Of a stretch of DNA of 64,000 nt, positions 35,844-49,047 are shown piece by piece. The translations under genes were made by a program, and so were the position numbers. Position 1 is the stretch's first letter. Every line of letters starts with the position of its first letter. The stretch lies in assembly GCA_002784145.1 (NCBI GenBank), contig PFKE01000064.1, forward strand, positions 1-64,000, in the 5' to 3' direction. The notes under the pieces were generated by a model that made no database searches, was not told the DNA's origin, and saw only the letters and a program-made list of their open reading frames with translations. This stretch comes from Flavobacteriaceae bacterium CG_4_10_14_3_um_filter_33_47. GTDB taxonomy: Bacteria; Bacteroidota; Bacteroidia; Flavobacteriales; Flavobacteriaceae.

Positions 35844-37742
35844 ATGAGTGATGCTTTAAAACATGAATGCGGCATAGCTGTTTTAAGACTTTTAAAACCA
35901 TTGGAGTTCTACAAAGAAAAATACGGAAGTGCTTTCTATGGTGTCAATAAAATGTATCTTATGATGGAAAAACAGCACAATAGAGGTCAAGATGGTGCTG
36001 GTTTTGCAAGTATTAAATTAGACACCAATCCTGGAGAACGCTATATAAGCAGAATTCGTTCCATAGCACAACAACCCATTCAAGACATTTTTGCTCAAAT
36101 AAATCAGCGAATCAATAAGGAGTTTTCTGAAAACCCTGAATATGTTGACAGTGTACACCTTCAAAAAAAGAATATCCCTTATATTGGCGAACTTTTCTTA
36201 GGCCATGTTAGATACGGTACGTTTGGAAAAAACAGTGTTGAAAGTGTTCACCCTTTTTTAAGACAAAATAATTGGCAACACAGAAACCTTATCCTAGCGG
36301 GTAATTTTAACATGACCAATGTTAAAGAATTATTTCAGAACCTGATCGATTTAGGACAGCATCCCAAAGAATATACGGATACTATTACCATTATGGAAAA
36401 AATTGGTCACTTCTTAGACGATTCTGTCAGTAAAATTTACAAAGACTTAAAAAATGAAGGATATAGCAAAAATGAATGCTCTCCTCTGATCGCCGATAGG
36501 TTAAATGTTGCTAAAATGCTAAAAAGAGCTGCCAAAAATTGGGATGGTGGCTATGCCATGGCAGGATTATTAGGCCATGGAGATTCTTTTGTTTTGCGCG
36601 ACCCAGCCGGCATTAGGCCTGCTTTTTATTACAAAGACGATGAAATTGTGGTGGTAGCCTCAGAACGACCTGTAATACAAACGGTTTTTAATGTAAAGTA
36701 TGAAGATGTTAAGGAATTAGAACCTGGGCATGCAATCATTACCAAGAAATCTGGAAAAACAGCCATTAAAAAAATATTAAATCCTCTAGAACGAAAAGCT
36801 TGTTCTTTTGAGCGAATTTATTTTTCAAGAGGAAGTGATGCCGATATTTATCAAGAACGTAAAATGCTTGGCAGATTATTGATGCCTAAAGTACTGGACG
36901 CTATTGAAAAAGACATTAAAAACACCGTGTTTTCTTTCATCCCTAATACAGCTGAAACCTGCTTTTTTGGCATGATAGAAACCGTTGAAGAGTTTCTTAA
37001 TAAAAAGAAAACAAAAGCTATTTTAAGTGGCACAAGAAATTTATCAGCAGAACGCGTTACAGAGATTTTATCAGAAATGCCTCGAATTGAAAAAATTGCC
37101 ATTAAAGATGTTAAATTAAGAACCTTTATTACTGAAGATAGTAGCCGAGATGACTTAGTAGCTCACGTATATGATGTAACTTATGGCGTCATTAAACCTA
37201 CAGATAATTTGGTGATTATTGATGATAGCATTGTTCGTGGCACTACGTTAAAGATGAGTATTATTAAAATGTTAGACCGATTAAAACCAAAAAAAATAAT
37301 CATTGTTTCATCGGCACCACAAATACGCTACCCAGATTGTTATGGCATTGATATGGCAAACCTAGAAAGTTTGATAGCTTTTAGGGCTGCCTTAGAGCTT
37401 CTTAAAGAATCCAATCAATATCATAAAGTAGAAGAGGTTTATAAAAAATGTGTTGAGCAAACAGATTTAGAAGATAAATATGTTCAAAACTTTGTTAGAG
37501 AAATTTATGACCCATTTACAGATGAGCAAATTTCAGATAAAATAGCAGAGTTACTTACCGGCGATAATGTTACGTCTGAAATAAAAATAATTTTTCAATC
37601 TGTAGAAAATTTACATCAAGCATGTCCAAAACATTTGGGTGATTGGTACTTTACAGGTTTTTACCCAACTGTTGGAGGAAATAGGGTTGTTAATCGTGCT
37701 TTTATTAACTTTTATGAAGGCAATAAAAAAAGAGCCTATTAA
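35844..37742 (+). CDS. Amidophosphoribosyltransferase-like class II glutamine amidotransferase (long form)
   Basis: KHECGIAVLRL, RGQDGAGFASIK, GHVRYGTFG, FVLRDPAGIRPAFYY, PRT motif VIIDDSIVRGTTL. Confidence 0.9.
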   Translation: MSDALKHECGIAVLRLLKPLEFYKEKYGSAFYGVNKMYLMMEKQHNRGQDGAGFASIKLDTNPGERYISRIRSIAQQPIQDIFAQINQRINKEFSENPEYVDSVHLQKKNIPYIGELFLGHVRYGTFGKNSVESVHPFLRQNNWQHRNLILAGNFNMTNVKELFQNLIDLGQHPKEYTDTITIMEKIGHFLDDSVSKIYKDLKNEGYSKNECSPLIADRLNVAKMLKRAAKNWDGGYAMAGLLGHGDSFVLRDPAGIRPAFYYKDDEIVVVASERPVIQTVFNVKYEDVKELEPGHAIITKKSGKTAIKKILNPLERKACSFERIYFSRGSDADIYQERKMLGRLLMPKVLDAIEKDIKNTVFSFIPNTAETCFFGMIETVEEFLNKKKTKAILSGTRNLSAERVTEILSEMPRIEKIAIKDVKLRTFITEDSSRDDLVAHVYDVTYGVIKPTDNLVIIDDSIVRGTTLKMSIIKMLDRLKPKKIIIVSSAPQIRYPDCYGIDMANLESLIAFRAALELLKESNQYHKVEEVYKKCVEQTDLEDKYVQNFVREIYDPFTDEQISDKIAELLTGDNVTSEIKIIFQSVENLHQACPKHLGDWYFTGFYPTVGGNRVVNRAFINFYEGNKKRAY

Positions 37743-37767
37743 TTTTAAAAAATGAAATTTGGGGCAC

Positions 37768-37840
37768 TTTATCCGTAAAAATCACATTTAATCTAAAAAA
37801 AGTGCTGTTTATCTAAAAAATAAATTTTTTATCTAAAATA
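37768..37840. repeat. Four phased direct repeats with exact 20-bp period (TTTATCTAAAAAA)
   Basis: TTTATCCGTAAAA 37768, TTAATCTAAAAAA 37788, TTTATCTAAAAAA 37808, TTTATCTAAAATA 37828. Confidence 0.8.
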
Positions 37841-37854
37841 CATATAAATTGGTA

Positions 37855-37928
37855 TCACCATAACATAAGTAGGTTAAGTTCATGGTAGATTTGGGGCAAA
37901 AAAAGGTGAACTTCTGTTCGCCTTTTTT
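37855..37928 (+). ncRNA. Putative small RNA unit 1 of a tandem pair
   Basis: TCACCATAACATAAGTAGGTTAAGTTCATGGTAGATTTGGGGCAAAAA (48 bp, one mismatch to unit 2), then AAAGGTGAACttctGTTCGCCTTTTTTT terminator. Confidence 0.6.
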
Positions 37929-38030
37929 TATGCCCTTCTTAATTTTTGAAGCCTTCCTTTTTGTTTCGTTTTTTAAAATCCTTTACTTTCCTCGCTTAAG
38001 CTAATATTTTAGTAGTTTGGCTAAAATATT

Positions 38031-38060
38031 TTTGCAGTTGTTGTTAGCTATATACTTTTG
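38031..38060 (+). promoter_or_regulatory. Bacteroidota-type promoter for unit 2 (TTTG-N18-TACTTTTG)
   Basis: TTTG at 38031-38034, TACTTTTG at 38053-38060; expected start coincides with the first base of the repeated unit. Confidence 0.65.
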
Positions 38061-38062
38061 GC

Positions 38063-38132
38063 TCACCATAACATAAGTAGGTTAAGTTTATGGTAGATTT
38101 GGGGCAAAAAGGTGAACTCTCGTTCACCTTTT
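38063..38132 (+). ncRNA. Putative small RNA unit 2 of a tandem pair
   Basis: Same 48-bp body as unit 1 (C->T once), followed by perfect stem AAAAAGGTGAAC-tctc-GTTCACCTTTTT. Confidence 0.65.
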
Positions 38133-38164
38133 TCATTTTTAAAACTTTATGAATTTTATTCAAA

Positions 38165-38218: not shown

Positions 38219-38827
38219 TTATTTTGCTTCAGCATAACGTCTTTCAACTTCATTCCAGTTAATGACATTAAAAAATGCATTGATATAATCCGGACGACGA
38301 TTCTGATAATTTAAATAATAGGCATGTTCCCAAACATCAAGTCCTAAAATGGGTGTTCCTCCACAAGAAACTCCTGGCATTAATGGGTTATCTTGGTTTG
38401 GTGTTGAACAAACTTCTACTTTTCCGCCTTTGTGAACACATAACCATGCCCAACCAGAACCAAAACGTGTGGCAGCAGCCTTGCTAAAGGTATCCTTGAA
38501 AGCATCTACAGAACCATAAGTTTCAATGATCGCGTCTTTTAATTCTCCAGATAAATATCCTTTTCCTTCAGGTTTCATAACATCCCAAAATAAGGAGTGA
38601 TTATAAAATCCGCCGCCATTATTTCTAACGGCAGCATTATTCATATCTAAATTTGTAAGAATATCTTCAATAGATTTACTTTCTAATTCGGTTCCCGCAA
38701 TAGCAGTATTTAAATTGTTTGTATAACCTTGGTGATGTTTAGTATGATGTATTTCCATGGTGCGTGCATCAATATGAGGCTCTAAAGCGTCATATGCGTA
38801 TCCTAACTTAGGTAATTCAAAAGCCAT
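38219..38827 (-). CDS. Superoxide dismutase (Fe/Mn)
   Basis: [65 protein letters not shown]. Confidence 0.97.
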
Positions 38828-48467: not shown

Positions 48468-48651
48468 AATCTATACCACTAAAAAAAAAAGGTTGCCTTA
48501 AAGCAATTCTTAAGCATAAATTTTAAAAAACTGTTTTCTGCTCATCCCTAATTTTCAGATTTGCTCAACAAAAAACTGCTTCTTTTTTTAAAAAAGATTC
48601 TTTAAAACGCAACCATTTTGCTTAAAAAGCATCTTTCCATAAAACTTACTT

Positions 48652-49047
48652 ATGAAAAAAGTTTATGTGCCTGTATTTGCCTTATGCCTTGTTTTTATGG
48701 CATTTCAATGTGAAGATGACATTCATTTAACTCAGGAACAAGAAGCGTTGGAATTAAATACTTTAAAACAAACTATTGATGATTTAGCCTCTCAACCTCT
48801 TTGCAACGAATCTACAGAATGTAACTATATCGCTTTTGGAAGCAAACCCTGTGGTGGCCCTTGGGGTTATTTAATATATTCCACCGCTATTGATGAAGAA
48901 AAACTCATCATGCTAGTTGAGGAATACAACCAAAAACAAGATGCTTTCAATAAAAAATGGGATGTGGTTTCAGATTGCTCAGTAGCTTTACCTCCTACAA
49001 ACATAAATTGTGAAAATAACACCTGCATTGCTGTTTATCAAAACTAA
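48652..49047 (+). CDS. Hypothetical lipoprotein, Cys-rich
   Basis: MKKVYVPVFALCLVFMAFQCEDD lipobox; several Cys in LCNESTECNYIAFGSKPCGGPWGYLIYST. Confidence 0.75.
   Translation: MKKVYVPVFALCLVFMAFQCEDDIHLTQEQEALELNTLKQTIDDLASQPLCNESTECNYIAFGSKPCGGPWGYLIYSTAIDEEKLIMLVEEYNQKQDAFNKKWDVVSDCSVALPPTNINCENNTCIAVYQN

Follow-up and report, generated by a model that had tools for sequence, protein, structure and literature searches.

What are the two near-identical stretches that follow one another downstream of a purF-like gene in this flavobacterial genome? They lie in a window (the whole stretch of DNA analysed here, 64,000 nt) between the purF-like gene at 35844..37742 (+) and a convergent gene for an Fe/Mn superoxide dismutase (sod) at 38219..38827 (-; Pfam PF02777 and PF00081), and both genes are conserved neighbours of the array, the one upstream and the other downstream. 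The Flavobacteriaceae are major degraders of polysaccharides in marine and soil habitats and are also gliders, and to our knowledge almost nothing is known about control by small RNAs (sRNAs) in this family. The initial annotation proposed that the two stretches represent a small RNA family. The comparisons reported here support this reading through family-wide conservation, a covarying terminator and the absence of an Rfam match, and the interpretation of the units as copies of a small regulatory RNA present in most Flavobacteriaceae genera is well supported by sequence comparison.

Two units in the purF-sod gap

The repeat was found as the initial annotation described it. The 48-nt body, TCACCATAACATAAGTAGGTTAAGTTyATGGTAGATTTGGGGCAAAAA, is present at 37855-37902 and again at 38063-38110, with a C/T difference at y as the sole mismatch, and the alignable repeat between the two units is 61 nt at 90%, with a start-to-start spacing of 208 nt. 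Each unit has a length of about 72 nt and combines a TAnnTTTG promoter, the conserved body and its own terminator. Unit 1 occupies 37855..37928 and unit 2 occupies 38063..38134, both on the + strand, with covariance-model scores of 94.3 and 90.6 bits, respectively. In a dinucleotide-shuffle fold test both units folded better than the shuffles (z -4.0 for unit 1 and -3.8 for unit 2). No tRNA was found in a search of the window.

The hairpin claimed to follow each copy is also there. The intrinsic terminator of unit 1, a hairpin with a T run at 37898..37929 (+), has arms at 37898-37911 and 37916-37929 that include one G-U pair, and that of unit 2, at 38106..38134 (+), has perfectly paired arms at 38106-38117 and 38122-38133; the loops of the two are unlike. 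The units have no conserved ORF, as had been stated, because the reading frame shifts between them through the length of the A run and an optional extra A (GTAGATT or GTAAGATT).

Two further segments are assigned to each unit as putative seeds on the + strand, both belonging to the invariant core of the roughly 400 units compared below. The loop seed CATAAGTAGGTTAA, at 37864..37877 in unit 1 and 38072..38085 in unit 2, is complementary to the start regions of conserved targets and would pair with TTAACCTACTT-ATG. The linker seed TAGATTTGGGGC, at 37886..37897 and 38094..38105, would pair with GCCCCAAATCTA, and the element CCAAATCTA is found in the leaders of the small-ORF and CAP lipoprotein genes discussed below. 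Between purF and unit 1, at 37757-37816, an inverted repeat (GCACTTT...AAAGTGC) is accompanied by a TTTGGGGCA stretch. This element is probably the purF terminator, and the two upstream half-sites of unit 1 overlap with it.

Conservation across the Flavobacteriaceae

When 60 relatives were searched at the DNA level, most genomes of the same family proved to carry close homologues, which typically form tandem pairs or longer arrays (six units at most) with a spacing of mostly about 200 bp. The array is located in the purF-sod gap in most genomes, with additional solitary copies at other loci. The window's genome has one such tandem pair. A covariance model with 23 diverse units as input recovered the proposed family in 126 of 151 Flavobacteriaceae genera (one genome each), with 1-6 copies per genome. 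Named carriers include Zobellia, Maribacter, Winogradskyella, Algibacter, Aquimarina, Salegentibacter, Kordia and Flavobacterium (F. aciduliphilum and F. swingsii). When the same model was applied to a phylum-wide sample of Bacteroidota, 27 of the 31 Flavobacteriaceae members were matched, and no convincing match was found in that sample outside the family (best E 2e-4).

The repeat goes far beyond chance, with the same body in hundreds of units family-wide. The consensus of about 400 units reads ACCATARC-ATAAGTAGGTTAAGTTyATGGTA(A)GATTTGGGGCAAAA, with C or T at position y in nearly all of them, and across the family the body is near-invariant while the flanks drift freely. Units 1 and 2 of the window's genus can be identified by position in other species, and the flanks of such position-matched units do not align. 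This suggests that selection accounts for the identity of the bodies more than recent copying does.

The terminator stem covaries family-wide. Nine pairs have changed on both sides, giving 175 such cells compared with 45 +/- 6 in shuffles, and sliding the terminator pairing out of register led to a clear drop in covariation. Hairpin 1 (ACCAUAAC/GUUyAUGGU) is the predicted fold in every unit. However, the majority of its pairs are invariant, so covariation speaks neither for nor against it and it stands as a thermodynamic prediction. One unit is predicted to form two stem-loops. A locus at first read as a compensatory variant of hairpin 1 (L047) gives no evidence for it, since the sequence is the reverse complement of a short transcript that has a promoter and a terminator of its own.

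The promoter proposed for the units was borne out in part. The -7 boxes TAAATTGG (37845..37852, +) and TACTTTTG (38053..38060, +) are present, a TAnnTTnG box occurs at the same offset in 385 of 401 units, and the TTTG-N18 arrangement is found before unit 2. However, across the family the -33 TTTG of unit 2 shows no conservation, and an alignment of 381 distinct promoters on the -7 box gave no conserved -33 box. That alignment instead contains two TTTnAnCnA half-sites, in columns -58..-50 and -38..-30, 20 bp apart. In the window, this direct repeat lies at 37787..37815 (+) for unit 1, with half-sites TTTAATCTA (37787-37795) and GTTTATCTA (37807-37815), and at 37995..38023 (+) for unit 2, with half-sites CTTAAGCTA (37995-38003) and GTTTGGCTA (38015-38023). 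The TTTnAnCnA repeat has the appearance of a site bound by a dimeric activator and may resemble direct repeats of the LytTR type.

Predicted targets at start codons

Weak matches of the homologue search on the opposite strand correspond to mRNA leaders complementary to the sRNA. A second locus with 2-4 motif repeats, considered as a longer protein-sequestering RNA, was rejected; its other strand is an mRNA leader with complementary sites and a small ORF. This ORF of about 42 codons is conserved, and its copy in the window's genome, MNVTANLPEQPTNNESKFRETLREQVRFIKSLLYITKKVFML, lies at G000:C92:8027-8152 (L353; L049). No Pfam or NCBIfam match was found for the product. The leader and first codons contain 2-4 complementary stretches, for example CCCCAAATCTACCATAAACTTA...ACTT-ATG and CAAATCTACCTGAACAACCTAC. 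For 17 loci scored automatically, the best duplexes had energies of -34 to -53 kcal/mol compared with about -18 when the RNA was shuffled, which corresponds to z -5.3 to -11.5; at all 17 the observed energy was reached by none of 100 sRNA shuffles. The small ORF was recognised in 23 genera, all of them sRNA-bearing, and in none without the sRNA in the same sample; this count excludes a single spurious match, which lay within an 815-aa frame. Of all predicted targets of the sRNA, the small-ORF mRNA is the strongest. Similar TTTCATCGA-type repeats occur at its promoters, which suggests that the sRNA and this target may share a regulator.

Several loci related to these leaders were also seen. The small ORF in the window's genome adjoins a convergent ABC-transporter-like gene. 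Aequorivita has a related 29-codon ORF with an additional complementary site in the 3' UTR. The short transcript mentioned above (L047, G004:C4, ~630-668) is a candidate non-coding RNA that has a promoter (TATATTTG) and a terminator as well as two sites complementary to the sRNA, and could possibly be a stand-alone sponge of the sRNA. In another genome (G013), an element present in two copies (L377 and L378) has a start, CCCCAAATCTACCATAACTTACC, that is strongly complementary to the sRNA, and the copies have a downstream sequence with an inverted repeat in common; an ORF search in these two elements found none.

For an unbiased view, a relative (G030) was scanned over 1.6 Mb, covering 1,320 gene starts. 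At z <= -4 there were 29 starts compared with 3-9 for shuffled RNAs, and at z <= -5 signal-peptide-like N-termini were found in 9 of 11 starts compared with 33% overall (Fisher p 0.001). The latter set includes gldK and a PorP/SprF-family protein. Raw energy thresholds gave only a mild excess of start codons over other positions, so that caution is needed with any individual prediction, and conservation between genomes is the more powerful test. Three groups of envelope genes also scored well across genomes. The starts of a CAP-domain lipoprotein (PF00188), with leaders like CCAAATCTA-n-TTAACCTACTT-ATG, had a mean z of -3.0 over 30 loci, those of gldL -3.1 over 30 loci and those of gldK -3.25 over 23 loci, all from duplex energies that ignore the folding of target and sRNA and from orthologous leaders, which are non-independent observations. 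Random starts already lean to a mean z of -0.87, and in 20,000 draws of 30 random starts no group averaged less than -1.84. The gldK and gldL sites are in part short (UUUAACCU) and AT-rich. In the few genomes with no convincing sRNA copy, five in number, the loci had a mean z of -1.1 compared with -3.3 in the rest (Mann-Whitney p 0.0003, with orthologues not independent). The window's genome also has the CAP, gldK and gldL leaders (L479, L405).

Pairing of the variable y with the G of AUG in ACCAUGAAC sites was considered and rejected, as such sites were not in excess in the window's genome (12 compared with 19 for the reversed pattern); the start codon of the targets is instead predicted to pair with the CAU of CAUAAGUAGG. 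Exact TAACCTACTTATG sites in the window's genome outside the sRNA were all inside coding sequence and were set aside. A LytTR regulator gene whose start in G030 has a perfect 13-nt site was likewise dropped, as the site is not conserved (mean z -1.0 in the same test). In one stretch, G030:C2:378828-388515, genes for secreted proteins lie together with a histidine-kinase-like gene and two response regulators of the LytTR type; three of these genes have sRNA sites at their starts. In the window itself, a 131-aa lipoprotein-like ORF (MKKVYVPVFALCLVFMAFQCEDD...) starts at 48652 (+) with CCATAAAACTTACTT-ATG, and its site at ~48637-48654 (z -3.2, -26.5 kcal/mol) makes it a possible in-window target.

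Proposed mechanism and relation to known RNAs

As is general for trans-acting sRNAs, the units have their own promoter and intrinsic terminator and show conserved complementarity to mRNAs encoded elsewhere. We consider it probable that they encode a multicopy, independently transcribed, trans-acting sRNA of about 72 nt whose loop and linker seeds would block translation initiation, with the small-ORF and envelope mRNAs as targets. In this model, each unit would be transcribed from its own promoter, probably through an activator on the TTTnAnCnA direct repeat. The 5' hairpin would display the loop seed AUAAGUAGGUUAA, the linker would carry the seed UAGAUUUGGGGC and the terminator would close the RNA. 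Both seeds would pair with CCAAAUCUA...UUAACCUACUU-AUG in short leaders and cover the start codon, and the position of the sites suggests that ribosome entry and translation initiation would be blocked, with the sign of regulation assumed. With its several sites, the mRNA for the ~42-aa protein may also act as a decoy that soaks up the sRNA. Further likely targets would be envelope genes, namely the CAP-domain lipoprotein, gldK and gldL (type IX secretion and gliding) and species-variable secreted proteins. Because the bodies are identical, the multiple copies would probably serve dose and speed of response rather than different targets. The sequence basis of the mechanism consists of discrete promoter-terminator units, invariant seeds and conserved complementary sites centred on start codons.

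A broader version is possible but more tentative, in which a core family-wide sRNA would set the translation of gldK, gldL, PorP/SprF-like and surface lipoprotein genes and would be buffered by a dedicated decoy mRNA (42-aa protein, 2-4 tandem sites, similar upstream control element). An RNA kept nearly letter for letter in more than 80% of genera, with predicted targets in secretion, gliding and the cell surface, would be one of the best-conserved regulators in the Flavobacteriaceae. Such an RNA would also offer an entry to post-transcriptional control in bacteria whose genome, as here, shows no RbpB-type (RRM) protein, and the idea lends itself to direct testing, given the copy number, the seeds and the targets.

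It is unlikely, though it deserves the most weight among the alternatives, that the sRNA has a single real partner, the small-ORF mRNA, which it silences or which acts as a decoy that titrates it, and that the envelope targets are mostly noise. Duplexes of -34 to -53 kcal/mol with several sites occur at small-ORF leaders only, and the 3' UTR site in Aequorivita and the two-site short transcript in G004 look like decoys, although they give no more than a hint of this. However, the small ORF was recognised in only about one third of the sRNA-bearing genera, so that it alone cannot explain the invariant body, and the CAP, gldK and gldL sites are conserved and are weaker where the sRNA is absent. 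A protein-binding RNA module that titrates a regulator in the manner of CsrB/RsmZ would fit the many copies with an invariant hairpin and a single-stranded motif, but the multi-module RNA behind this idea is the mRNA leader with complementary sites on the other strand, and we regard this reading as very improbable.

A search of the window against Rfam at the gathering threshold gave nothing, and the best matches by E-value (mir-9447, STnc40 and an rpsL leader) were taken as chance, as their alignments run mostly over the terminator or over stretches rich in A/T. The closest functional parallel is FopS (RF04319)/GibS of Bacteroides thetaiotaomicron, which are short (65-70 nt), paralogous, multicopy sRNAs with an AUG-directed seed that covers the start codons of surface-protein mRNAs (PMC11697453). 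Like these, the units are short and multicopy (1-6 copies per genome, ~72 nt), have their own promoter and terminator and carry a predicted start-codon seed for surface-protein mRNAs; they contain the stretch UUCAUGGUA..AGAUUU, and the FopS and unit models have UUCAUGGUA..AGAUUU..GG in common. Nevertheless, a divergent member of the FopS/GibS family is quite improbable. The units belong to another order of Bacteroidota, score 20.6 bits against the FopS model compared with a gathering score of 56, and begin with a predicted hairpin rather than a single-stranded R1 seed, the R1-like stretch being internal and partly in hairpin 1. They also form tandem arrays at one syntenic locus and have an additional conserved upstream element, and the phylum sample contained no intermediates between the two families. 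A search for RbpB-type proteins (RRM-1, PF00076) found no match in the window's genome (97.6% complete), whereas a control search found one in Bacteroides. As far as the 1.6-Mb scan of G030 goes, in which SusC-like mRNAs were not among the top recognised candidates, the predicted targets lean to CAP, type IX secretion and the small ORF rather than to SusC. By analogy, the sRNA would work like FopS, yet it falls outside that family in score, 5' structure and partner protein.

Somewhat less improbable, but still doubtful, is an identity of the units with Rfp18 or a different Rfp RNA of Flavobacterium psychrophilum, in which case the RNA would already have been described in one species. As far as its published description goes, Rfp18 is the nearest candidate for an earlier report, being a conserved structured sRNA of the same bacterial family with an influence on secreted proteases and with a secreted adhesin as a predicted target (PMC9723704), and the unit family does occur in Flavobacterium. 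However, the same description has Rfp18 pairing by a third stem-loop and conserved in the genus Flavobacterium, whereas a unit has two predicted stem-loops, or four if a transcript ran through both units, and is found family-wide, and the main text mentions neither a purF nor a sod context (PMC9723704). Text searches of the literature brought up neither an sRNA in the purF-sod gap nor control of gldK by an sRNA. The sRNA family is apparently undescribed in Rfam and in the literature searched.

The arrangement of the units has parallels in more distant bacteria. OmrA/OmrB of enterobacteria and LhrC1-5 of Listeria are encoded in near-identical adjacent copies with stress-type activator sites and repress surface proteins, and the units resemble them in their near-identical adjacent copies, activator-type sites and predicted repression of surface proteins. 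We know of no sequence relation between these RNAs and the units, and the activators and hosts are different. PrrF1/PrrF2 of Pseudomonas are also a tandem near-identical sRNA pair, and PrrF targets a superoxide dismutase. Unlike PrrF, the units have no predicted site at the sod start, and none was seen at the purF start either; their upstream elements presumably also differ from the Fur sites of PrrF. What they have in common with PrrF1/PrrF2 is the tandem near-identical pair, here with a sod gene adjoining it.
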